This document shows, one piece after another, positions 3,113 to 56,300 of a stretch of DNA of 62,774 nucleotides. Source of the DNA: an uncultured Bacteroidales bacterium (lineage in GTDB: Bacteria > Bacteroidota > Bacteroidia > Bacteroidales > UBA932). Below the pieces are notes generated by a model. It was not told the origin of the DNA, did not search any database, and saw only the letters and a list, made by a program, of their open reading frames with translations. The stretch is from the NCBI GenBank assembly GCA_905235995.1, contig CAJONI010000010.1, forward strand, positions 1 through 62,774, given 5' to 3'. The position numbers and the translations under genes were made by a program. How positions within the stretch are numbered: the stretch's first letter is position 1; each line of letters begins with the position of its first letter.

Positions 3113-4197
3113 TCCTGGTTCCTGAGCCACGGGGTGAAGCCGGCTCCTTCGATGGTTTCCTGAAGGATTCCTGACCCGGCATCTCTCTCCAGATGTTGCG
3201 CCCCCGCCGCCGAAACGACGTTTTCTTCTATCATGATCGAGCCCATGTCGTCGGCACCGGCGTGCAGGGCGCGGGCCCCGGTCTCCAGGCCGACGGTGAG
3301 CCACGAGGCCTGGATGTGGTCGACGTTGTCGAGCACGAGCCGGGCAATGGCGATAGTCCTGAGGAATTCCTCGTCCGGACTCCATCGACGGGGCTCTCCG
3401 GGAAGCGAGATCCCTTCGGGAAGCTTTCCTTCGGAAGCGAGCTTTTCAAGCTGGGTCCCCTTGAGCTGCATGGGCCAGCAGATGAAAGCCCGGAAACCGA
3501 CAGTCCCTTCGGGGCGCTCATCCTGCAGCGTCCGGATTGCAAGGAGATGGTCGATCCGCTCTTCGAGGGTCTCGACATGCCCATAGACCATGGTCGCGGT
3601 AGTGCCCATCCCCAGGGCATGAGCCTCTCGCATAACCTCAAGCCATTGGGTGGCAGTAGGTTTCGCCGGGGAGAGGAAACGCCTCACCCTGTCGCACAGG
3701 ATCTCCGCCCCGGCGCCCGGAAGGGTATCGAGTCCTGCCGCACGCAAACGCACGAGCACCTCGCGGTATGAAAGCTTCGAAAGGCGGGCGATATGGGCCA
3801 CCTCGGGCGGCCCCAGGGCGTTGAGCCGAAGGTCCGGATCGTACTCCTTCAGGCGGCGGAAGAGATCTTCGTACCATTCGATCCCGTAGCGAGGATGCAG
3901 GCCTCCCTGCAGCAGCAGCTGGTCGCCTCCCAGCGCCCGAAGTTCGTCAATCTTCGGCAGATATTCTTCGAAATCAAGGGTATATGCCTTTTCGGGCTCA
4001 TCCGGACGGCAATGGAAATTGCAGAACTTGCAGGCGGAAAGACAGACGTTCGTATAGTTGACGTTGCGGTCGATCTGATAGCTCACCCGCCGTTCCGGCA
4101 CATGCCGGAACCGTTCGACTTCCGCCCGCCGGCACAACTCCTCCAACGGCGCCTCCCGATACAGCCGCAAGGCCTCTTCTTTCGTCAACCTTTTCAT
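3088..4197 (-). CDS. mqnC: Cyclic dehypoxanthine futalosine synthase MqnC (radical SAM)
   Basis: MqnC performs the radical SAM cyclisation in the futalosine route to menaquinone. The 369-residue protein has the CxxxCxxC cluster motif in CLSACKFCNF, the LLQGGLHP segment of the MqnC/CofG/CofH group, and the GSIMIEENVVSAAGA block typical of MqnC near the C terminus. The paralogue MqnE was considered, but the C-terminal EENV block and length favour MqnC. It lies 104 bp downstream of glnS on the same strand, with an inverted repeat between them. Its last 25 bp overlap the end of rnhA on the opposite strand. Confidence 0.9.
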   Translation of the reverse strand: MKRLTKEEALRLYREAPLEELCRRAEVERFRHVPERRVSYQIDRNVNYTNVCLSACKFCNFHCRPDEPEKAYTLDFEEYLPKIDELRALGGDQLLLQGGLHPRYGIEWYEDLFRRLKEYDPDLRLNALGPPEVAHIARLSKLSYREVLVRLRAAGLDTLPGAGAEILCDRVRRFLSPAKPTATQWLEVMREAHALGMGTTATMVYGHVETLEERIDHLLAIRTLQDERPEGTVGFRAFICWPMQLKGTQLEKLASEGKLPEGISLPGEPRRWSPDEEFLRTIAIARLVLDNVDHIQASWLTVGLETGARALHAGADDMGSIMIEENVVSAAGAQHLERDAGSGILQETIEGAGFTPWLRNQDYKPASCV

Positions 4198-4240
4198 TCT
4201 GTCTTGCTCGTTTGCTGGTTAGCAGTGTAAACGATGACGG

Positions 4241-4296
4241 TTGCTTGCGCGAAGCGTCGGTCCGACAGGCAATACCCAGAGCGCCAGCGCAAGCAA
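4241..4296. repeat. Nested inverted repeat between glnS and mqnC
   Basis: Perfect 10-bp arms TTGCTTGCGC (4241-4250) and GCGCAAGCAA (4287-4296) enclose 36 nt. That interval contains a second short hairpin, GTCGG-T-CCGAC, at 4256-4266. There is no T-run, so it does not look like a simple intrinsic terminator. It lies in the 104-bp gap between glnS (upstream) and mqnC, and could be an mRNA-processing or attenuation structure; this is inference. Confidence 0.5.
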
Positions 4297-4301
4297 GAGT
4301 C

Positions 4302-5954
4302 TTATAATTTGAAGGAATCTTTCAGGCTGGTGGTCTTGTTCATTATGAGGTGGTCGGGCGTGGAGTCGGGGTCTTTCCTGAAGTAGCCCACACGCTCGAA
4401 CTGCACCGCGATCTCGCCCGGATCGCCGAGCAGAGCCGGCTCTGCCCAGCCCTTGCTCACCACCAGGCTCTCCGGATTGAGGAAGTCCTTGTAGTCCTTG
4501 TCTTCAGGCACCAGCGACATGTCTTCCAGGGTGAAGAGCCTGTCGTAGTTGCGACACTCGATCTCCCTGGCGAAAGCCGTGCTCACCCAGTGTATGGTCC
4601 CCTTTACCGAACGCCACTGGCCGGACTGCGGATGAGTCGTCGGATCGTAGGTGCAGCGCAGCTCCACCACCTTGCCGTCGGCGTCCTTCACCACCTCATT
4701 GCACTTGATGATGTAGGTGTATTTCAGACGCACCTCGCCGTCAGGCCTGAGCCTGAAATATTTCTTGGGAGCGTCTTCCATGAAGTCTGCCCGGTCGATG
4801 AGCAGTTCGCCCGTGAAGGGGACGCGGCGCTTCGGCCCGTCGGGGGCGGCGGGATTCAGGGGAGCCTCGAACCATTCCACTTTGCCGGGCTCCCAGTTGG
4901 TGAGCGTGACCTTTATGGGATCGCCAGAGACGACCATGTAGCGGTTGCTTCTCTCGTTGAGGTCCTGGCGGACACAGTATTCCAGCAGGCCGATGTCCAT
5001 CAGCTGGTCGCGCTTGCTCACTCCGATCCTGTCGCAGAACATCTTCAACGCTTCGGGCGTGTAGCCGCGCCGGCGGACACCGCAGAGGGTCGGCATGCGG
5101 GGGTCGTCCCAGCCCGACACGTAGCCCTTCTCCACCAGTTCCAGCAGCTTGCGCTTGCTCATGAGGGTGTAGGTCAGGTTGAGACGTGCGAACTCGTACT
5201 GGTGCGACGGGTAGATGCCAAGCGTCTCGATGAACCAGTCGTAGAGCGGACGGTGTATATCGAACTCAAGGGTGCAGATGGAGTGGGTGATGTGCTCGAT
5301 CGAATCGCACTGCCCATGGGTGTAGTCGTACATCGGGTAGATGCACCACTTGTCGCCGGTGCGGTGGTGCGACGCGTGCTTGATGCGGTAGAGGATGGGG
5401 TCGCGGAACATCATGTTGGGATGCGCCATGTCGATCTTCGCGCGGAGCACCTTTGCGCCGTCGGGGTACTTGCCGGCCTTCATCTCACGGAAGATGCGGA
5501 GATTTTCCTCGACGCTGCGGTTGCGCCAGGGGCTGTCGACGCCGGGAGTCTCCACTGTGCCGCGGTTGACGCGGATCTCCTCGAGGGTCTGGTCGTCGAC
5601 ATAGGCCAGGCCGCGCTCTATGAGCTGCTCCGCCCATTCGTAGAGCTGGTCGAAGTAATCGGAAGCGTAGCGCTCCTCGGCCCACTGGAAGCCGAGCCAC
5701 TTGATGTCTTCCTTGATGGCGTCCACATATTCGACGTCTTCCTTCGTGGGGTTGGTGTCATCGTAGCGCAGGTTCGTGCGTCCGCCGTACTTCATGGCAA
5801 GCCCGAAATTGATGCACAGGCTCTTGGCGTGTCCCAGATGGAGGTAGCCGTTGGGCTCCGGAGGAAAGCGGGTCACGATGCTGTCGTACTTGCCGGCTGC
5901 CAGGTCGGCTTCGATGATCTCTTCGAGGAAATTGTTCTTCCGTTCTTCTTCCAT
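4302..5954 (-). CDS. glnS: Glutaminyl-tRNA synthetase
   Basis: Charges tRNA-Gln directly. The 550-residue class I synthetase has the HIGH-type motif within RFPPEPNGYLHLGHAKS near residue 35, the GlnRS/GluRS acceptor-binding segment around FRDPILYRI, the KMSKS-equivalent MSKRKLL, and the C-terminal anticodon-binding beta barrels. Length is typical of bacterial GlnRS. It has its own -7 box (5977-5984) and is divergent from yicC. Direct GlnRS use suggests the cell does not depend only on transamidation for Gln-tRNA. Confidence 0.97.
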   Translation of the reverse strand: MEEERKNNFLEEIIEADLAAGKYDSIVTRFPPEPNGYLHLGHAKSLCINFGLAMKYGGRTNLRYDDTNPTKEDVEYVDAIKEDIKWLGFQWAEERYASDYFDQLYEWAEQLIERGLAYVDDQTLEEIRVNRGTVETPGVDSPWRNRSVEENLRIFREMKAGKYPDGAKVLRAKIDMAHPNMMFRDPILYRIKHASHHRTGDKWCIYPMYDYTHGQCDSIEHITHSICTLEFDIHRPLYDWFIETLGIYPSHQYEFARLNLTYTLMSKRKLLELVEKGYVSGWDDPRMPTLCGVRRRGYTPEALKMFCDRIGVSKRDQLMDIGLLEYCVRQDLNERSNRYMVVSGDPIKVTLTNWEPGKVEWFEAPLNPAAPDGPKRRVPFTGELLIDRADFMEDAPKKYFRLRPDGEVRLKYTYIIKCNEVVKDADGKVVELRCTYDPTTHPQSGQWRSVKGTIHWVSTAFAREIECRNYDRLFTLEDMSLVPEDKDYKDFLNPESLVVSKGWAEPALLGDPGEIAVQFERVGYFRKDPDSTPDHLIMNKTTSLKDSFKL

Positions 5955-11375: not shown

Positions 11376-13781
11376 TTATTTGTCCTTGGTGCGTTGTATG
11401 ATCAGGAAGATGGAAGCCATGCTGGTTCCCAGGGAGGCCACTGTGGTTGCCATGGAGGCTACACGTGCGAGAGTCTCGCCGGCGGCTCCTTCCCTCTTGA
11501 TTTTCGCGGGTACCACTATCTGGTCACCCGGCTGGATACGGGTACCGCCCCTCAGTTTCTCGGAATTGCCGTTCATGTGGATCACATAGACCTTGCTCCT
11601 CTTCGCACCGGTCAGGTAGCCGCCACAGGCTTCGATATAGCCTGCTCCATTCTTACCCGGTTCGTAGGTAAGGACGCTGGGCATCATGACCGAGCCGATG
11701 ACCCTCACCGTATTGCGGATCAATGGAATGTCGAGTACGTCTCCCTCAACCACTTCGATATCGTATCTTGAGCCAGGATTCGCAAGGGCCTGGTCGAGCC
11801 TGATCGCAACCTGGTAGCGGCTTGCAATGGTATCTAGTCCGGTCGAGTCCAACGTGGCGTTCTGGGCGCCCCTGTATTCGAGTACCTTGAGCAATTGCTC
11901 CCTCTCGTCATCGGTCATGTTGCGGTAGAGGCGCGCTCCGGCCAGATAGGCGTAGTTCGTCGTACCGCCCGCCTTGCGCACTATGTCACTCAGGCGCTCG
12001 CCGCGGTTGGTCAGGGTGAAATCGCCGGCAAAATTGACCTCGCCGGTCACCGTCACGTGTGTCTGGGAGGTGTATGCGGGACTGCGGTGGACGGTCACTT
12101 CGTCGTAGGGCTCCAGATAGACCTTTGCGCCCCCGTCGTCCACGAAGCCGTCACGAAGGCGGACGCTGATTATCTCGCCGAGACGCTCGTCGGACACAAG
12201 GCCCTGGGCATCGCGCTTGCGGCGGGCGATGTCGACGCGGGCGAGCGAAGCGCCTTCCCTCAGGCCGCCGGCCATGATGATGAGGTCTTCGACAGTGGTG
12301 TTTCGGGCATAGGGGAAAACTCCGGGGTTCGTCACCATGCCATAGATTGACATGGTTGCCTGCTCCTGGATATCAGCACGGCTGGTGATGAAGAGTTCGT
12401 CGTTTTTCTGGAGGACTATGTCGGGATCGGCGCCGGAGAGCACGCGGCCCAGATTGACCGAGATCACCTCGAAACTCTTGTCCTCGTCGTGCTGGCGGTG
12501 CAGCACTGCGAGGTTCAGGAACGCGTCGGGTAGCAGACCACCAGCCTTGGACACCAGCTGGCGGACCGTCTTCACGTCGCCGCCAAGTTCATAGGTCCCT
12601 GCCTGGTAGACAGCACCGCTGACCGACACCCTGTTCTCGTAGTATGAATTGAGTTCCGACACTGTAACTTCGTCGCCATCCTGCATCTCGAAACTGCGGA
12701 ACCTGGGTGCCTCGACGGTCCTGACTTCATAGTTCTTGCCGTTCTGGCGCACTACGGTGACGCTCTCGGTAAAGGCCCCGCTCGCGAAACCTCCGGCATA
12801 GGCCAGCAGATCCTCGAGGGTCTCTCCGGCTTTCAGCTCGAAGCTCATTGGACGCCTCACCTTGCCTCCGATCTTCACCATGCATGTATAGGGCCTGACA
12901 AGGACCACGTCGCCTTCTTCCAGGCGGATGTCACGCTCCCGGCTGCCCTTGACCAGAAAGTCATAGACGTCAACGGTCCCGACTATCTTGCCCGCACGGT
13001 TGACCACTATCTCACGGAGAGAACCCGGTTCCACCACTCCGCCGGCCAGGTAAAGCACGTGGAACACTGTCGAGAAGGCAGGGACCATGTAGGTGCCGGC
13101 ATGCTGGACGTCTCCCAGGACGTTCACCTGGATGGAGCGGATCTGGCCGAGGCTCAGGCGGATGTCAGTGCCGTCGGAACTGCGGTTCAGGCCCCCGTAG
13201 ATACCTGCGAGCTTGCGCTTGAGGTACTTGTTGGCCTCTTCGATGGTCATGCCGCTCAGATATACCGGGCCGAGGATATCGACGTTGATGCTGCCCTCGG
13301 GGGATATGACGCTGCGCAGGGTGGTCTGGTTGGCTCCGAAAATATCGATTATGACTTCGTCGCCCGGGCCGAGATGGTAGTTCTTCGGGGTGGCGAGATT
13401 CTCGCTGGGAGCGAAGTTGAGTTCGCGGTTGCGAAAGATGTCACGGCCGTATACCATAGGTCCGTTTTCCGTATCCTGGAAATCGGCGGGAGCGAAGTCC
13501 ACCTCACCCTGCACGATGTGGGACCTGTCATCAGAGCCCGAAACGGCCTGTGCGACAGCCGTCTGCTGGCTGTCGTAGAGTTTTTTCACGCGTTCGGCCT
13601 GGGCGCGGTCCACCCCGCGGACCACCAGTTCGCGCAGAAGCTCGTTCTGGGTCTTGCCCTGTTCGATCCCGGCCTTCACGTAGTCGAGCACCTGGACATC
13701 TGTCATAGTGCTTTGAGCCATGGCCGCCAGGGTGCTTCCCAGCAGCGCTGCGAGCAGGAACAACCGTTTCAACATCTTCAT
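11376..13781 (-). CDS. Wza-like polysaccharide export protein with SLBB domains
   Basis: Outer-membrane polysaccharide export protein of about 801 residues. A signal peptide (MKMLKRLFLLAALLGSTLAAMA) is followed by the Poly_export domain (LGPGDEVIIDIFGANQ) and several SLBB repeats, among them VLGDVQHAGTY, VSGAVYQAGTYELGG, IYGMVTNPGVFPYA and VTGEVNFAGDF. There is no lipobox cysteine, unlike classical Wza. An in-frame ATG exists at 13814, but the -7 box (13812-13819) overlaps it, so the start at 13781 is preferred. Together with the Wzz-type gene it forms a two-gene unit. Confidence 0.9.
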   Translation of the reverse strand: MKMLKRLFLLAALLGSTLAAMAQSTMTDVQVLDYVKAGIEQGKTQNELLRELVVRGVDRAQAERVKKLYDSQQTAVAQAVSGSDDRSHIVQGEVDFAPADFQDTENGPMVYGRDIFRNRELNFAPSENLATPKNYHLGPGDEVIIDIFGANQTTLRSVISPEGSINVDILGPVYLSGMTIEEANKYLKRKLAGIYGGLNRSSDGTDIRLSLGQIRSIQVNVLGDVQHAGTYMVPAFSTVFHVLYLAGGVVEPGSLREIVVNRAGKIVGTVDVYDFLVKGSRERDIRLEEGDVVLVRPYTCMVKIGGKVRRPMSFELKAGETLEDLLAYAGGFASGAFTESVTVVRQNGKNYEVRTVEAPRFRSFEMQDGDEVTVSELNSYYENRVSVSGAVYQAGTYELGGDVKTVRQLVSKAGGLLPDAFLNLAVLHRQHDEDKSFEVISVNLGRVLSGADPDIVLQKNDELFITSRADIQEQATMSIYGMVTNPGVFPYARNTTVEDLIIMAGGLREGASLARVDIARRKRDAQGLVSDERLGEIISVRLRDGFVDDGGAKVYLEPYDEVTVHRSPAYTSQTHVTVTGEVNFAGDFTLTNRGERLSDIVRKAGGTTNYAYLAGARLYRNMTDDEREQLLKVLEYRGAQNATLDSTGLDTIASRYQVAIRLDQALANPGSRYDIEVVEGDVLDIPLIRNTVRVIGSVMMPSVLTYEPGKNGAGYIEACGGYLTGAKRSKVYVIHMNGNSEKLRGGTRIQPGDQIVVPAKIKREGAAGETLARVASMATTVASLGTSMASIFLIIQRTKDK

Positions 13782-13811
13782 ATATTTGTTCGGATTATTG
13801 GGTTCAACTGG

Positions 13812-13819
13812 CAAATATA
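13812..13819 (-). promoter_or_regulatory. -7 box for the polysaccharide export pair (TATATTTG)
   Basis: A perfect TAnnTTTG element on the minus strand, about 30 nt upstream of the ATG at 13781. It separates the export pair from the upstream nusB-fabG operon. Confidence 0.65.
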
Positions 13820-13826
13820 CAAAAAA

Positions 13827-14573
13827 TTACATTCCCATACCACCATCCACGAGAATCACCTGCCCGGAAACATACGAGGCAAGGTCGGAGGCAAGGAAGG
13901 TACATACTTTCGCCACTTCTGCCGGCGTGCCGCCGCGGCGCATCGGAATCTTGGCTTCCCACTGCTTCAGCACGTCGGGGCCCAGCTTCTCGGTCATGTC
14001 GGTCAGGATGAAGCCGGGAGCGACCACGTTGGCGCGAACGCCCTTGGGGCCCAGTTCGGCCGCTATGGACTTGGCGAGGCCTATCATGCCGGCCTTGGAT
14101 GCGGAGTAGTTGCACTGTCCGGCGTTGCCGTGTACGCCTACGATCGAACTGATGTTGATGATCGAGCCGCCTCTCTGCCTGAGCATCACGGGACTCACGG
14201 CGTGGATGAAGTTGAAGGCGCTCTTGAGGTTGACCGTCAGCACGGCGTCCCACTGGAGTTCAGTCATGCGGAGCATCAGGCCGTCTTTGGTGATGCCGGC
14301 GTTGTTGACCAGTATGTCTATGCGGCCGAAGTGTTCGACCACCTGATCAACGGCCTGGTGGGTCTGCTCGAAGTCGGCGGCGTTGGAGGCGATGGCGAGC
14401 ACCTTTACGCCAAAGGCCTCGAGTTCCTTTTTCGTGGTCTCGCCGATTTCGTCGATGACCAGGTCCGTGAAGGCGATATCTGCGCCTTCTTCTGCAAATT
14501 TGAGGGCGATCTGCTTTCCGATGCCTCTCGCCGCGCCCGTAATCAGCGCGACCTTTCCTTTCAGTAATTCCAT
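13827..14573 (-). CDS. fabG: 3-oxoacyl-[ACP] reductase FabG
   Basis: NADPH-dependent ketoreductase of fatty acid elongation. The 248-residue short-chain dehydrogenase has the cofactor motif TGAARGIG at residues 13-20, NNAG near 90, the catalytic Ser in NISSIVG and the Tyr/Lys pair in YSASKAG, and ends GGMGM as FabG proteins do. It is the last gene of the leftward operon and starts 1 bp after rimO. The acpP/fabF genes usually found beside fabG are not here. Confidence 0.95.
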   Translation of the reverse strand: MELLKGKVALITGAARGIGKQIALKFAEEGADIAFTDLVIDEIGETTKKELEAFGVKVLAIASNAADFEQTHQAVDQVVEHFGRIDILVNNAGITKDGLMLRMTELQWDAVLTVNLKSAFNFIHAVSPVMLRQRGGSIINISSIVGVHGNAGQCNYSASKAGMIGLAKSIAAELGPKGVRANVVAPGFILTDMTEKLGPDVLKQWEAKIPMRRGGTPAEVAKVCTFLASDLASYVSGQVILVDGGMGM

Positions 14574-15870: not shown

Positions 15871-16325
15871 TACTTAGCTTCTTCGGGTTTCTCTTCTTCT
15901 TTATTTTCCTCCTCTTCTTCGGCCTCGAACTCGAGGGAGGCATGGTTGCGGAGCTCTTCGTACCAGCCCAGTATCTTCTTCATGTGCGATACATAGAAGC
16001 GGTCAGGATCGTAGTCGGGGATCACTTCGGAGAAGAAGGCCTCTATCTTGCGCGGGCTGTCCTTGGGGCTCGGCGCTTCACCTTTTTCAAGTTTTGCGGC
16101 CATCGAAGCGAGCACGTCGCGAAGGGGCACGTCTGTCTGGTCGGTATAGACCGAGATGTCGGAGAGGGCGCTTACCTTGGCGCTGGCTCCAAGCATCTGG
16201 CGGTGGCCCGTAGCAAGGTTCTCGGCGATGATGCCGCCGCGTCCCTGCGCCACATAGGCGAACAGGCCGTGTTCTCCGGAAACGGAGAGGATTTTTTTCA
16301 GGTCGGTTTTTTCAGTCTTTTCCAT
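15870..16325 (-). CDS. DUF5606 family protein
   Basis: A 151-residue protein with the compact N-terminal domain of the DUF5606 family (KKILSVSGEHGLFAYVAQG, SALSDISVYT), a helical middle (YVSHMKKILGWYEELR) and a strongly acidic Glu-rich tail. The family is largely confined to Bacteroidetes and has no established function. It overlaps coaE by 14 bp and rimO by 1 bp, so it is translated as part of a tightly packed operon. The aligned linkage to rimO and coaE suggests a housekeeping role; that is inference. Confidence 0.85.
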   Translation of the reverse strand: MEKTEKTDLKKILSVSGEHGLFAYVAQGRGGIIAENLATGHRQMLGASAKVSALSDISVYTDQTDVPLRDVLASMAAKLEKGEAPSPKDSPRKIEAFFSEVIPDYDPDRFYVSHMKKILGWYEELRNHASLEFEAEEEEENKEEEKPEEAK

Positions 16326-52045: not shown

Positions 52046-52735
52046 CTACTCCTTTTTCAACACCTCTCGATACTTCCTGGATATCGGCAAAGAAGTATCG
52101 CCCACTTGCAAGGAGTCGGAGGAAACAGAAGTGATGGCAGACCGCTGCACAAGGTAGGCGCGATGAATACGCACGAATCCTTCCCCCAACAGATTCTCCC
52201 ATTGTGTAATACCCGTCTTATTGCGGTAAGATTGCCCGTCAAGCGTTACAATGCGTACTTCAGTGTCATTGGACTCGATGTATGCGATATCCGTCACGTC
52301 CATCGTCACTGTCTTTCGATCAGAGAAGAACGTAATGGTCCGCGGTTTGCCAGCGTACCTGCGATCCAGCCATTTGCGCCATTGCAGATCGCCCAGGGCA
52401 AGCACCGTCATCAATAGCCCGAGGAAAACAGGATTGATCAGGACAGGGTTCAGATCGATCAATTCATACACCTCTGTCCGCATGAACGGACTCCACAGCA
52501 GATGGTGTACGAGGAGAAGTTGCAGGATGGAAGCGGTCAACACTGCCAGAAAAAGATAGACCCTTTCCAGTATTGTTTCGGTCTTGGGCATACAATACTC
52601 CAGGGCCAGCGCACAGGGGCAGAAGACCAGGCTTATCAGCAGAGCTTGCGAAAAAGAGTAATCCATACTGATAAGAATGGCGGAGATGAGCGCCAGGGCA
52701 AGCAGCCAATAACCAATGCGGCAGACTATCTTCAT
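52046..52735 (-). CDS. Membrane-bound LytTR-domain transcriptional regulator
   Basis: A 229-residue protein with four predicted membrane helices in residues 5-120 (YWLLALALISAILISM, LLISLVFCPCALAL, VYLFLAVLTASILQLLLV, VFLGLLMTVLALG) and a C-terminal LytTR DNA-binding domain (IAYIESNDTEVRIVTLDGQSYRNKTGI ... FVRIHRAYLVQ). The sensor and DNA-binding parts are thus in one protein. It is divergent from the small membrane protein and TlpA-type genes, a likely target. The start at 52735 follows its -7 box by 5 nt, so the message may be leaderless; the frame is open 36 bp further upstream across the box. Confidence 0.88.
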   Translation of the reverse strand: MKIVCRIGYWLLALALISAILISMDYSFSQALLISLVFCPCALALEYCMPKTETILERVYLFLAVLTASILQLLLVHHLLWSPFMRTEVYELIDLNPVLINPVFLGLLMTVLALGDLQWRKWLDRRYAGKPRTITFFSDRKTVTMDVTDIAYIESNDTEVRIVTLDGQSYRNKTGITQWENLLGEGFVRIHRAYLVQRSAITSVSSDSLQVGDTSLPISRKYREVLKKE

Positions 52736-52740
52736 ACGGA

Positions 52741-52748
52741 CAAATATA
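52741..52748 (-). promoter_or_regulatory. -7 box of lytTR gene promoter (TATATTTG)
   Basis: A perfect TAnnTTTG on the minus strand, only 5 nt from the ATG. Confidence 0.65.
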
Positions 52749-52771
52749 CACAAGTTCCTCCAGTCCGTCAA

Positions 52772-52838
52772 GGAGAGTAGCCGCTACGGATGGATTTGGC
52801 ACGGTCAGAGTAGGATATAACTTTGGAGAATAGCCGAT
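52772..52838 (+). promoter_or_regulatory. Candidate operator: direct repeat GGAGAnTAGCCGnT
   Basis: Two copies, at 52772-52785 and 52825-52838, 53 bp apart (about five helix turns), agreeing at 12 of 14 positions. The first lies just upstream of the lytTR promoter. The second lies in the spacer of the divergent promoter. A role as binding site for the LytTR protein is inference. Confidence 0.35.
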
Positions 52839-52854
52839 TATCAGTGTAACTTTG
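52822..52854 (+). promoter_or_regulatory. Promoter of the small-membrane-protein/TlpA pair
   Basis: TTTG at 52822-52825 and TAACTTTG at 52847-52854 with 21 nt between, a textbook Bacteroidetes promoter. The TTTG is itself the end of an upstream TAACTTTG (52818-52825), giving a possible second, tandem promoter. Confidence 0.75.
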
Positions 52855-52874
52855 CAAAAGAAAATCCTTTTATC

Positions 52875-53267
52875 ATGAAAGAAGAAGTATATATGGTGGC
52901 TGACTCTCTGGGCGTCTTTCACCCCGAGACTATCGAAGTGCCGGAATGGACTGTTTCCCGCCTCTTCATCGAAGGCGGAATGACTGGCATGACTATCATC
53001 ACGGTCTTTCTCATCTTGTTGTTTCTCGCCGCCTGGAAAGCCCCACGCTGGGTGCGTGAAATCGGCATCGGGGCGCTGGTAGCTTCGGCCTTTTGGACAG
53101 GGATCGGCATCTTCCAGGTATTTGGGCTGGCAGAACAGTTCGGCACCGAAGTCACAGATGGAATCATGTATGGCGGATTGCGGATAGCGATGATCTCATT
53201 CATGTATGGCTTAATCGTTTATTTCATCTCATTGGTCATCCGCGTCATTCAAAAACCCAGAATATGA
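52875..53267 (+). CDS. Small membrane protein of unknown function
   Basis: A 130-residue protein with three predicted membrane helices (MTIITVFLILLFLAAW, IGALVASAFWTGIGIFQVF, MISFMYGLIVYFISLVI). No family recognised. It is first in a two-gene unit with the TlpA-type lipoprotein (ATGA overlap) and divergent from the membrane LytTR regulator. That layout suggests a regulated envelope function. Confidence 0.75.
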   Translation: MKEEVYMVADSLGVFHPETIEVPEWTVSRLFIEGGMTGMTIITVFLILLFLAAWKAPRWVREIGIGALVASAFWTGIGIFQVFGLAEQFGTEVTDGIMYGGLRIAMISFMYGLIVYFISLVIRVIQKPRI

Positions 53268-54385
53268 AAAAGATGTTCCTCGTTTCCGCTTTTCTGCCGA
53301 TGCTCTGCGTCGGCTGCACTTCTGACAATACATGCACCATCCAAGGAACTGTCACGGTCCCGGATACTGCAAAGGATTACTATGCAGTCATGGTATGCTG
53401 CAACAACGATGTCGATACCTGTCTGGTCAAAAACGGGGCTTTTACGCTCAAGACGGTTCAGAATCCGCACCTCCAGCAGCGAATCCGTTTTATCGACGCT
53501 GAAGGAAATGAAGTCGGTGACGGAGGCCTTTTCGATATGATGGAAATTGTGGCCGACACCCGGAAGATGACGGTCGATTTCGACAACCTAACCGCTTCCG
53601 GCAGCCCGTTGACCACAGCGATGAATGAAATGGTCCTACAGGTATACCAGATCCTGGAAGGACCCGGGCCGGAATTGGATGAGATGATCTCTGCATCCGA
53701 AGCGGGTGATAAGGAAAAGATGATGGAGATATCTATGCGTACGGGCCAGAAGATGGATTCCGTCCTCCGCACGAACTATCTCGCCCATCTCGATGATGCT
53801 GTTGGCTTGCAGGCAATGACTCTCATGGCCTTCGACCTGGATTATGAAGAAATGGTGAATCTGCTCGACCAGGGAGCCGACTTTATCAGGGAGGACGATA
53901 ATATTGCCATGACGCTGAACTACAAGCTCGCCCCCAGCAAAGAGGATGGAAAAGTGGTTTTCGTCAAAGTGGAGCCCGACGGGTGCGTGATCTCCCAGGA
54001 AGAACAGGATGCCTCCGCTTGCCTGGAATACCTCAACGGGACCGGTCGGGATGGCTATGTGCTGCTTGACTTCTGGGCCAGCTGGTGCGGCCCCTGCCGC
54101 GAAGCGATACCCGAAGTCATCCAACTGAACAGCACATTCTCGCCGAAAGGCCTGAAGGTCATAGGCATCACGGTCAAGGACAAGCCGGAGAATTCACTTG
54201 CCGCAATGGCAGAACTGGGAATAGATTACAACCAGATCTTCGATCTCGACGGCATCATCTGCTCAAAGTTTCCCATCGCAGGAATACCGCATTTCTTCCT
54301 CCTCAATCCGGAAGGCGATATCGTCTGTGATGGCCACAGCCTCCGCGTATTCGATCATTACCTTCAGCAAGGATATAACGAATAA
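53264..54385 (+). CDS. TlpA-type thiol-disulfide lipoprotein with DUF4369-like domain
   Basis: A 373-residue lipoprotein (lipobox LCVGC near residue 18). The N-terminal part (about 25-230) resembles the DUF4369 domain often fused to thioredoxins in Bacteroidetes. The C-terminal thioredoxin domain has the redox motif WASWCGPC and the cis-Pro in IAGIPHFFL. It probably reduces or exchanges disulfides in the periplasm. The start at 53264 overlaps the upstream stop; the longer frame is rejected because of the signal peptide. Confidence 0.9.
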   Translation: MKKMFLVSAFLPMLCVGCTSDNTCTIQGTVTVPDTAKDYYAVMVCCNNDVDTCLVKNGAFTLKTVQNPHLQQRIRFIDAEGNEVGDGGLFDMMEIVADTRKMTVDFDNLTASGSPLTTAMNEMVLQVYQILEGPGPELDEMISASEAGDKEKMMEISMRTGQKMDSVLRTNYLAHLDDAVGLQAMTLMAFDLDYEEMVNLLDQGADFIREDDNIAMTLNYKLAPSKEDGKVVFVKVEPDGCVISQEEQDASACLEYLNGTGRDGYVLLDFWASWCGPCREAIPEVIQLNSTFSPKGLKVIGITVKDKPENSLAAMAELGIDYNQIFDLDGIICSKFPIAGIPHFFLLNPEGDIVCDGHSLRVFDHYLQQGYNE

Positions 54386-54426
54386 GCCATACCCGCACAA
54401 CAGCGTTCTTTTTCCTCTGCTATGAT

Positions 54427-54566
54427 GCAATCAGTTTGCGCCGCACCTCTGGACGCTCGGTCCATGAAGGCGCCTTCTGACATCTCGTGCGTCCACCATT
54501 CGGCCCAAACTGCCAGTTTTGCGGACGCTCAAGGTATGAGATGAATAAAAGATGGATTGAGCGTCC
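54427..54566. repeat. RAYT-associated repeat, copy A (3' side of the transposase gene)
   Basis: About 140 bp that aligns without gaps to copy B (55617-55756) at roughly four-fifths identity by hand. It holds a 12-bp palindrome GAAGGCGCCTTC (54466-54477), a small AAACTG/CAGTTT hairpin, and a perfect 10-bp inverted repeat GGACGCTCAA (54523-54532) / TTGAGCGTCC (54557-54566) with a 24-nt loop. It ends 4 nt before the transposase stop codon. It fills most of the gap 54386-54570. Confidence 0.85.
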
Positions 54567-54570
54567 AGGG

Positions 54571-55506
54571 CTATAGACAAAGGCATCGCCGGAGTTGTGC
54601 TTCACAGGTTTTTTTCTTACGTGCCTTCCAGAGGTTCCGCCATATCAGGTCGTGCAGGAATTCCCGTTGTGACCGGGTAGTCTCATAGATGGTGCTGACG
54701 TTGCAGTATTTTGGAAGACAGGTTTCATCAATCAAATGGCATAGTTCCAAATCTGTTATCCAGACCAGGTCATGCTTGCCGTTTTCGTTCCGTAACAGTT
54801 GACTGATGTCCAGGTCTGGTGTCCCCTGTTCGATCAATTCCAGTGTGATGACCGGTAAAGAAGAATTTTCTTCTTTTTGCTCTTTCTGAAGCATTTCATC
54901 GCCAATCCGGTTCATCTGATACAGATAGTTCCGAGCCGTACCGTAGTAGGATTCAACCGTGGTAACGTCGATGATGTCCTCTCTCAGGAGCAGTCCGGAG
55001 CCATCCATCCGATATGATGTCGGGATGTCGGCATTTCTCGGTAAATATTTGTAGCGGTGTGAATCGGGCATGAGTACCAAAGATTGTACTTTTCCTAACT
55101 GTTTGGAAAAAAACACATTGGAAGAGCCGTAGGGGTAACCGAACGGTGTAGGGGCCAGGCCGTGATGTAGTCCCTGGCGATTTACGTAATTGAGTGCCGC
55201 CATCGTATGGTGGAATCCTTCGACAGGCAAAATAAAACAAAACTTTTCTGCCAGCCTTCCCAATCGTTTATTCCGAGCGTTGAAATAGCGAGTGTAGGCG
55301 AGCCGGTAGCGCCTCATGGCTTCCTTGGGGGAGTCTGTCTGTAAAAGACAGTGAAGATGGGTTGTCATGAAGCCGTCGGACAACAGTCGGGAATCTGTTT
55401 CCAAGATGGCCATGGCCAGACAATTGAAGCCGCGGATCAGGTCAGCTTCATTCCGGAACAATACTTCATTGTGAGAAGAGAGGGAGATGTGATAGGTCTT
55501 CCGCAT
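54571..55506 (-). CDS. REP-associated tyrosine transposase (RAYT, Y1 HUH family) with long C terminus
   Basis: A 311-residue protein. Residues 1-125 match the Y1-transposase/RAYT layout: the HUH motif His50-Leu-His52 in MTTHLHCLL, the YTRYFNARN segment, and the candidate nucleophile Tyr107 in ALNYVNRQGLHHG, followed by a YPYGSSN block like the PWSSY of RAYTs. Residues 125-311 are an extension with no recognised domain. The base composition is clearly richer in AT than the neighbours. It lies between two diverged direct repeats. RAYTs are single-copy and act on REP palindromes; IS200 TnpA is the alternative, but it is shorter. Confidence 0.8.
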   Translation of the reverse strand: MRKTYHISLSSHNEVLFRNEADLIRGFNCLAMAILETDSRLLSDGFMTTHLHCLLQTDSPKEAMRRYRLAYTRYFNARNKRLGRLAEKFCFILPVEGFHHTMAALNYVNRQGLHHGLAPTPFGYPYGSSNVFFSKQLGKVQSLVLMPDSHRYKYLPRNADIPTSYRMDGSGLLLREDIIDVTTVESYYGTARNYLYQMNRIGDEMLQKEQKEENSSLPVITLELIEQGTPDLDISQLLRNENGKHDLVWITDLELCHLIDETCLPKYCNVSTIYETTRSQREFLHDLIWRNLWKARKKKTCEAQLRRCLCL

Positions 55507-55587
55507 TGCATTTCGTTTCTCTGGTTACACATATCATTCGCACTATTCGTCCGCCGCGTTCAACCGCCACAGCCGAAATGCTTACAG

Positions 55588-55595
55588 CGAAGATA
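55588..55595 (-). promoter_or_regulatory. Near-match -7 box for the RAYT gene (TATCTTCG)
   Basis: One mismatch to TAnnTTTG, the same variant as seen before purA. A TTG lies about 18 nt upstream. Confidence 0.4.
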
Positions 55596-55616
55596 CAACA
55601 ATTCCAGCGAATTCAA

Positions 55617-55756
55617 TGCAAAAAGATTGCGCCGCCATTATAGACGCTCGCTCCATAGGTGCGCCTTCTGATGCCTCATGCGTCCACGATTCGACCCAAA
55701 CTGCCGGTTATGTGGACGCTCAAGGCATGAGATGCATAAAATATGGACCGAGTGTC
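55617..55756. repeat. RAYT-associated repeat, copy B (5' side of the transposase gene)
   Basis: Direct repeat of copy A, in the same orientation, lying 110 bp upstream of the RAYT start. The GGACGCTCAA arm (55714-55723) is kept, but the partner arm has decayed to CCGAGTGTCT, and the GGCGCC palindrome is altered. It lies in the 425-bp gap 55507-55931, which otherwise holds only the RAYT leader and the DUF486 promoter. Confidence 0.85.
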
Positions 55757-55898
55757 TTCCGATACTTCCGTGCTTCCATGGCTCCACATCTACAACAGTA
55801 AAGAGTATGTTATTCCCAGCACCTATGGAATTCAAGCTTATCCCACCAAGGGAACGGAATGTGGACGGTTCATTAGAACAAAGCTAGTCTTTTTTATC

Positions 55899-55906
55899 TA
55901 CCTTTG
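55899..55906 (+). promoter_or_regulatory. -7 box of DUF486 gene promoter (TACCTTTG)
   Basis: A perfect TAnnTTTG, 25 nt upstream of the ATG at 55932. It sets that start over an upstream in-frame ATG at 55743, which would read through repeat copy B. Confidence 0.7.
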
Positions 55907-55931
55907 CGGCCCGGAAATCAAACACACGCCA

Positions 55932-56300
55932 ATGCAAGCCATTTGGACCGTTCTGATGCTGGTTTGCTCCAACATCTTCATGACATTCGCCTGGTATGGG
56001 CATCTCAAGCTGCAGGAGATGAAGATCTCCACCGGATGGCCGCTCATCCTGGTCATACTCTTTTCGTGGGGCATAGCCTTCCTGGAGTATTGCCTCACCG
56101 TTCCGGCAAACCGCATAGGCTTCGTCGGCAACGGCGGGCCGTTCAACCTCATGCAGCTGAAAGTCATTCAGGAAGTCATCTCCCTGACGGTCTTCTCGAT
56201 AATAGTGCTGCTCGTCTTCAAGGGCCAGGCCATCCAGTGGAACCACATCGCGGCCTTCGCCTGCCTGGTGCTGGCGGTGTTCTTCGTTTTCCTGAAATAA
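55932..56300 (+). CDS. DMT-family DUF486 membrane protein
   Basis: A 122-residue protein with four membrane helices and the DUF486 pattern (CSNIFMTFAWYGHLK, ILFSWGIAFLEYCLTVPANRIG, QLKVIQEVISLTVF). The family belongs to the drug/metabolite transporter superfamily; the substrate is unknown. It has its own promoter and is convergent with the MFS genes, 8 bp apart. Confidence 0.9.
   Translation: MQAIWTVLMLVCSNIFMTFAWYGHLKLQEMKISTGWPLILVILFSWGIAFLEYCLTVPANRIGFVGNGGPFNLMQLKVIQEVISLTVFSIIVLLVFKGQAIQWNHIAAFACLVLAVFFVFLK

Follow-up and report, generated by a model that had tools for sequence, protein, structure and literature searches.

Does the transposase-like gene described here, together with the two repeats that flank it, form a system of the REP/RAYT type, in which a RAYT lies among the repeats on which it acts? 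The gene is located in the window, i.e., the whole stretch of DNA analyzed (62,774 nucleotides), which belongs to an uncultured Bacteroidales bacterium (genome G000). The relevant features of the window are as follows.

54571..55506, minus strand: gene for a RAYT-like HUH/Y1 transposase of 311 aa (ORF, 45-homologue alignment, AlphaFold, Foldseek, dN/dS), with H50, H52, Y107 and Q111 and a mostly helical C-terminal extension from about residue 130
54437..54444, plus strand: 5' tag TGCGCCGC of repeat copy 1 (sequence; TGCG position count over 59 elements)
54448..54568, plus strand: predicted REPIN copy 1, on the 3' side of the RAYT gene (outer stem 15/15 pairs, inner 12/15)
55628..55635, plus strand: 5' tag TGCGCCGC of repeat copy 2 (sequence; TGCG position count over 59 elements)
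55639..55759, plus strand: predicted REPIN copy 2, on the 5' side of the RAYT gene, in direct orientation (outer stem 14/15 pairs, inner 12/15)

The original prediction described two ungapped repeats of the same orientation and about four-fifths identity on either side of the gene, and this description was accurate. Positions 54425-54565 and 55616-55756 (141 nt each) align directly and without gaps at 80% identity (E 4e-31 in a sequence search of the own genome). These repeats lie 6-146 nt past the stop and 109-250 nt ahead of the start, and the single gene-sized ORF between them is 54571-55506 on the minus strand. The structured cores of the two copies are 54448-54568 and 55639-55759, each preceded by the TGCGCCGC tag, and strong RNA folding is predicted for both.

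Identification of the transposase

The protein contains the motif T-H50-L-H52 and, at a distance of 55 from H52, Y107; the residue at Y+4 is Q (Q111). Among 45 aligned homologues, H50 and Y107 were invariant and H52 was conserved in at least 90%, in agreement with the HUH motif (His50/His52) and the candidate Tyr107 proposed previously. The three own paralogues have the motifs TH[LFW]H and YVNRQG, and no W is invariant.

With the Pfam profile Y1_Tnp (PF01797), the window protein scored 13.5 bits, which is under the cut-off of 23, and 4 of the 45 homologues were matched at E up to 0.1 (best 8.9e-5). No NCBIfam match to the window protein was found; REP_Tyr_transpos matched 6 of the 45 homologues (best E 1.5e-11), and the three of these that were tabulated (A2 members) scored 29-44 bits against its curated cut-off of 80. 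A profile-based sequence search of PDB detected nothing relevant. Because the matches to Pfam and NCBIfam were below threshold or absent, a comparison of folds was used. The best Foldseek match of the AlphaFold model (mean pLDDT 92.3) in PDB was 4ER8 (E 1e-5; TM 0.35 for the query and 0.62 for the target), the structure of E. coli TnpA-REP, a RAYT, bound to a REP hairpin. The IS608 and ISDra2 transposases ranked after it. On the basis of this modeled fold and of the homologues that bridge to known profiles, the window protein is a RAYT. The proposed check against PF01797 thus did not reach its cut-off, and the Y1/RAYT placement came from the fold and the bridging relatives instead; this cut-off serves for detection and does not define the family, so the low score reduces certainty and leaves the fold result unaffected. 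The C-terminal extension, previously considered unusual, is indeed present, but it is not unique, as extended RAYT subclasses have already been described (accessible part of PMC6006769).

The genome that contains the window is an 88% complete draft (1.96 Mb, 78 contigs). Besides three distant homologues, it has two close RAYT paralogues, one on C26 (68% identical) and one on C34 (55%). Across 40 genomes of the genus, we detected 52 RAYT matches (some of them fragments) in 19 genomes, with up to seven per genome; the RAYT sets include close-species duplicates. A scan of named genomes with two peptide patterns yielded 38 loci, all in uncultured Bacteroidales/Bacteroidia assemblies; the record titles of 12 give a ruminant host or organ, and 10 others carry RUG names, presumably denoting rumen genomes. 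A profile search of 148 relatives gave matches in 43, many of which cover just the N-terminal part of distant genes. In tblastn searches, no RAYT match was found in 72,556 plasmid records or in 50,697 phage records.

The window RAYT is sister (support 100/99) to a clade formed by the RAYTs of G010, G017, G018, G033 and G037. Its dN/dS values against three orthologues were 0.06-0.07 with saturated dS (above 2). Two less diverged orthologue pairs gave 0.07-0.10, and one very close pair gave 0.14-0.17; two C26 pairs yielded no dS. These ratios indicate that the RAYT is under purifying selection.

Architecture of the repeats and a common 5' tag

When sister loci were searched with both window copies, elements matched on both strands (58 strand hits); the repeat unit is therefore nearly its own reverse complement and has two inverted halves. 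Half-units were also found singly (L128 and L131). A long hairpin, in which outer arm pairs with outer arm and inner with inner, had 90.1% paired cells in 25 elements, with eight pairs showing changes on both sides. Five measures of its covariation were reached by 0, 5, 3, 1 and 0 of 500 shuffles, in which relatedness remains. Judging from these alignments, each window repeat is a REPIN, whose two inverted REP-like halves are predicted to form one hairpin of ~120 nt. Separate hairpins of the individual REPs were also considered as the conserved structure and were rejected, as no covariation excess was seen for them in the same sequences. Rfam searches detected nothing in window positions 54200-56000 at E up to 0.1, nor in L155, L156 and L204 at gathering scores.

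In 45 of 59 elements (0.5% by chance), the sequence TGCG preceded the start of the covariance model, on the 5' side, at a distance of exactly 11 nt; these include 35 of the 46 RAYT-side elements and 10 of the 13 solo elements. The tag consensus is TGCGCCGC, and that of positions -11 to -3 is TGCGCCGCC. The tag also occurs beside diverged stems, being found in 20 of 31 RAYT-side elements whose stem start is not GGACGC. It is missing at -11 from 14 of the 59 elements, and none of the five elements in the L045/L048/L149/L150 RAYT clade has it. On the other side of the hairpin, the motif AT[GC][AG]GAT was present within 16 nt of 18 of the 59 elements, vs 0.12% at random, and the corresponding 5' span never contained it; 41 elements, both window copies included, lack this 3' motif. 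The GT[AG]G foot, a trait of the GTAG REP superfamily, was found near the hairpin in just one element of 28, vs 16.5% expected at random. All of these chance rates were taken from the window sequence only. The 59 elements comprise 46 at RAYT loci and 13 solo ones (of at least 49) and omit the close-species orthologue duplicates L018, L022, L034, L046, L030, L153 and L027, one L120 duplicate, L135, the half-units, the partial hits of L143 and weaker second-strand hits. By analogy with GTAG (accessible part of PMC8266576), the TGCG tag might be a guide or cleavage signal. The arms of window-family elements carry GGACGC/GCGTCC, and several other clades are without it.

Dispersal of the repeats and co-occurrence with RAYTs

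The original prediction made its reading conditional on dispersal of the repeat in the genome. Dispersal was observed in the genomes of relatives but not at home, where a sequence search at E up to 1 detected only the two bracket copies. As the repeat sequence occurs only twice in this 88% complete draft, the evidence for dispersal comes from the relatives. By sequence, the window repeat was found nine times in G010, and matches occurred in 7 of the 40 genomes. The repeat that flanks the C34 paralogue gave 30 matches in G022 (some representing one place on both strands) and, in G000, two full copies with otherwise partial matches only. Full copies of the C26 repeat were found only in G000, with one 73% match in G038 and otherwise weak partial ones.

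A covariance model (R1) detected at least 92 elements in the 40 genomes (E up to 0.001, strands merged), at least 43 of them within 3 kb of a listed RAYT and at least 49 elsewhere; up to 90 candidates per genome were scored, and the element counts may be low. The four R1 elements of G000 are all brackets, namely, the window pair and the C26 pair. The model thus recovers paralogue brackets with different stems, including both C26 copies; it gave no match to the C34 brackets. Together, sequence and covariance-model searches, of the kind proposed in the original prediction, placed the window repeat twice at home and further members of its family in related genomes.

Both a RAYT and an element were present in 16 genomes, a RAYT only in three (G028, G029 and G030), an element only in two (G019 and G020) and neither in 19 (Fisher p 2.8e-6, ignoring the kinship of the genomes). 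The proposed REPtron-like arrangement, a RAYT among its cognate repeats, is supported by the structural match to 4ER8, the covarying REPIN, the copies in sister genomes and this co-occurrence.

In a crude ORF test, 10 of 17 solo elements were outside ORFs, as were all four at the 17-kb locus L120, the sole locus with good context. Synteny between the element cluster on C42 of G010 and the sister genomes is broken, precluding an empty-site comparison. At L120 in G010, a 376-nt segment around a REPIN is duplicated (13578-13952 and 15948-16323; 97% identity) within 2.4 kb.

Repeats bracketing other RAYT genes

Bracketing pairs were sought around 50 RAYT genes from the collected loci, some of them duplicates from close species; a pair was defined as repeats of at least 40 nt, direct or inverted, at E up to 1e-5, with a copy within 3.5 kb on each side. 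Such a pair was found around 40 of the 50 genes and around 0 of 119 random control positions, which were all taken from the window and for which the pair had to surround a gene-sized gap. Of the ten genes without a pair, six (L025, L033, L040, L048, L143 and L158) have one flank shorter than 450 nt. At L149 the gene start was misassigned in the analysis, and its twin L041 has a direct pair. No pair was found at L016, L157 and L159, although the covariance model gives L016 one element. At L050, L144 and L145, one side of the pair reaches farther than 2.8 kb from the gene, and these pairs may belong to dispersed repeats instead of being brackets. The distant RAYTs L144, L145 and L147 (31-37% identical to that of the window) have several repeats of 100-300 nt around them.

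The C26 paralogue is bracketed by 140-nt direct repeats (95% identical) and the C34 paralogue by 305-nt direct repeats (91% identical), both unlike the window repeats in sequence. Bracket orientation is direct at the window and inverted in its sister clade, and the distance to the gene also varies among loci.

At most RAYT loci examined, the bracketing repeats were more like each other than like those of other loci, with a mean identity of 0.85 within a locus vs 0.61 between loci (21 loci). The window pair is 0.79 alike, and the best values of its copies to any other element compared are 0.72 and 0.67. Within the sister clade, the best matches are orthologous repeats of the same side, which are closer than the two sides of one locus. 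RAYT similarity and repeat similarity were correlated over 20 loci (Mantel rho 0.33, a value as high in 11 of 5000 permutations; phylogeny ignored).

Different locations of orthologous RAYTs

In G010, G017, G018, G033 and G037, the sister-clade RAYT occupies one site beside an ABC-transporter gene, presumably lptB, and has inverted brackets. Comparison with sister genomes, which had been proposed as a way to find empty sites, showed that this site is empty in G000: the flanks are adjacent there, separated by 95 nt vs 3504 nt in G018. The G018 segment contains the RAYT, both REPINs, one of which ends about 30 nt from the border, and a 666-aa ORF outside the bracket. G026 is also contiguous across the site. 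The site is not spanned by a single piece in any of the other 38 genomes, so that inversions there complicate the inference of the older state.

In G000, the window RAYT is next to a TlpA-like gene and a gene for a small membrane protein (both named by look) and has direct brackets. Thus, place and bracket orientation both differ between G000 and the five genomes. Judging from these sequence comparisons, the difference in place would reflect either transposition or duplication and loss. The more distant RAYTs of G016 (L019) and G034 (L016) are in neither neighborhood. A LytTR/TlpA-like neighborhood (window positions 52046-54385) occurs near RAYTs of different clades in different genomes.

Additional genes within and near the brackets

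The 305-nt direct repeats of the C34 paralogue enclose, besides the RAYT, a HicA gene (PF07927, E 8e-8) and an HTH gene (L010, 3215-3812). The latter was just below the cut-off of HTH_3, and we assume it to be the HicB partner of HicA. In G017, the left flank has a diverged counterpart (94 nt, 78.6%), which is 126 nt from the right-flank gene, and no repeat, RAYT or HicA is found between these C34-type flanks. Among the best 16 non-self hits, which are from 16 genomes (including G017), right-flank homology begins at query positions 4177-4313; the right repeat of C34 ends at 4112, i.e., before this homology starts. Five of these loci, taken with 1.5 kb beyond (L200-L204), contained nothing like the repeat, RAYT or HicA.

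By eye, the first ~65 nt of the 305-nt repeat resemble the unoccupied G017 spacer (L156, 3237-3300 vs L204, 3940-4066), as if the repeated unit included chromosomal DNA that was there before; pieces of this repeat start also match other places in several genomes. DNA similar to the C34 HicA region (71 and 70%) was seen in G034 (C45) and G035 (C26), on contigs without a listed RAYT.

Two further genes (L009, 3624-4300) are enclosed by the C26 bracket; one encodes a putative membrane protein and the other a regulator of the XRE type (HTH_3, E 1.6e-11). A homologue of this membrane protein (57.5%) adjoins an other-clade RAYT in G037.

In the clade of the own C34 RAYT, a Myb/GcrA-like multi-HTH gene (189-212 aa) is directly upstream of 5 of 7 RAYTs and on the same strand:

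L042, 3339-3977: Myb/GcrA-like gene
L043, 3427-3996: Myb/GcrA-like gene
L140, 5922-6659, minus strand: Myb/GcrA-like gene, up to 245 aa by first start
L142, 5918-6517, minus strand: Myb/GcrA-like gene, overlapping the listed RAYT ORF by 4 nt
L151, 4377-4961: Myb/GcrA-like gene

It is possible that its product is a partner of the C34-clade RAYTs. Repeats were also seen near the distant homologues of the own genome. Palindromes of the TGACGGTA type occur on both sides of the distant Y1 gene on C68 (L012, 551-587 and 1587-1678), and inverted repeats around GTGTGCCC are found near one gene end on C17 and C44 (L011, 1390-1529; L013, 1478-1614).

Comparison with known systems

With the REPtrons of Gammaproteobacteria and E. 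coli TnpA-REP, the system shares the HUH/Y1 fold, a RAYT among its cognate repeats, a REPIN composed of two REPs in inverted orientation, further copies in related genomes and a RAYT kept by selection. However, the unit is longer here (a ~120-nt hairpin with two 15-bp stems), a 5' TGCGCCGC tag is found in place of GTAG, and the protein has a C-terminal extension and Q, not N, at Y+4. In addition, a genome can contain as many as seven RAYT homologues, whose repeats are divergent, and REPIN copy number is low.

TnpA-REP subclass 2.6 (RAYT group 5), as presented in the accessible part of PMC6006769, is likewise found in Bacteroidetes, with copies elsewhere and atypical flanking structures without GT[AG]G. 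Its motifs there are NH[LIV]H, WQ and YIH[QN]NP, with a median HUH-Y distance of 82 and a length of 179, whereas the three own paralogues have TH[LFW]H and YVNRQG, W is not invariant here, and the window protein has an H52-Y107 distance of 55 and a length of 311 aa. Motifs and HUH-Y spacing (55 vs about 82) thus rule out the subclass 2.6 label as defined in that text.

TIRtrons, with their TIRYT genes, also have a Y1 gene between long, partly self-complementary, non-GTAG repeats, some of them dispersed (accessible part of PMC3733652). In contrast to what is given there, brackets are direct as well as inverted here (direct in the window, inverted in the sister clade, vs the terminal inverted repeats of TIRtrons), and one REPIN architecture with a common 5' tag extends across divergent sequences. 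The CGTC-tagged REPs in the same source resemble the window family in GGACG/CGTCC, but those printed there have a terminal unpaired tag, stems of 8-9 bp and no associated transposase. A CGTC-REP reading of GGACGC/GCGTCC was rejected, as CGTC is inside 15-bp arms here and several other clades lack the motif.

IS200/IS605 elements (IS608, ISDra2) share the fold and Q at Y+4; they differ in that distinct left and right ends, a second gene-sized ORF and near-identical multi-copy insertions in G000 were not found here.

Interpretation and alternative explanations

Taken together, the data make it very probable that the locus is a REPIN/RAYT system, REPtron-like in the broad sense, of an uncultured Bacteroidales genus, with presumed activity. 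The RAYT would bind the folded single strand of its own REPIN, recognize TGCG in the way that GTAG is read by E. coli TnpA-REP and cut beside the hairpin with Y107 by HUH chemistry, and a unit of roughly 130-150 nt would occasionally be copied to a new place. In G000, no spread of the window REPIN outside its own bracket is seen. Sequence comparison indicates that, on the time scale of the genus, the RAYT with a fresh REPIN pair has come to occupy different places. What is new here is the TGCG tag, the long REPIN, the several paralogues with their own repeats, some of them with cargo, and the differing places. In the accessible parts of the RAYT/REPIN papers examined, we found no description of this family, of the TGCG tag or of HicA within a bracket.

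Another possibility, which we regard as rather unlikely, is that the two REPINs are the ends of a composite mobile unit and that the RAYT moves everything between them, cargo included. Such a unit would explain the C34 RAYT, HicA and HicB-like genes between 305-nt direct repeats, the nearly joined C34-type flanks of G017 without repeat, RAYT or HicA, the right-flank homology that starts beyond the right repeat in 16 genomes, with L200-L204 also free of the unit, and the joint bracketing of the C26 RAYT, an XRE gene and a gene for a putative membrane protein. It also fits the distribution of the window-clade RAYT, which occupies a common site in five genomes and another place in G000, whose counterpart of the common site is empty. 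However, bracket orientation differs between the window and its sister clade, so the ends of the unit are not fixed. Five genomes retain the RAYT at one site, inversions around this site complicate its history, the G018 segment missing from G000 also holds the 666-aa ORF outside the bracket, and G000 has no near-identical second copy (the next is 68% identical).

That the repeats are regulatory hairpins of the RAYT gene (terminators or mRNA stabilizers) and not substrates appears improbable: the closeness of the window repeats to the gene and their strong RNA folding would fit this role, but at least 49 of at least 92 elements are away from any listed RAYT, the 5' tag is common to RAYT-bound (35/46) and solo (10/13) copies, and orientation and distance vary among loci. 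It is very improbable that the locus is an ordinary IS200/IS605 insertion whose ends carry subterminal hairpins, even though the HUH/Y1 fold and Q at Y+4, as in Q131 of the H. pylori enzyme (accessible part of PMC6006769), would be expected of such an element. G000 has only two close paralogues (55 and 68% identical), the brackets are near-equal repeats rather than distinct left and right ends and enclose no second gene-sized ORF, and the gene shows purifying selection and no plasmid or phage match.

Implications for the RAYT family

Returning to the REPIN/RAYT reading, one genome of this genus can have as many as seven homologues, many of which come with a repeat of their own; this provides a natural series for enzyme/hairpin co-divergence. 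As tag and architecture are constant and the stem sequence is variable, the recognition code is directly testable. RAYTs have been described as single-copy, vertically inherited and not self-copying (accessible part of PMC8049555). The different sites of orthologues, together with the empty site in G000, are relevant to the possibility that RAYTs can themselves move. As a speculative and unlikely extension, tagged REPINs (TGCGCCGC - long hairpin - AATGGGAT) might be interchangeable ends, any two of which, in either orientation, would let the RAYT relocate the DNA between them, so that paralogues would diversify into enzyme/repeat pairs ferrying cargo such as a HicA-type toxin and its partner. 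If true, the system would stand between REPtrons and composite transposons, as a domesticated, cassette-like form of single-strand transposition.
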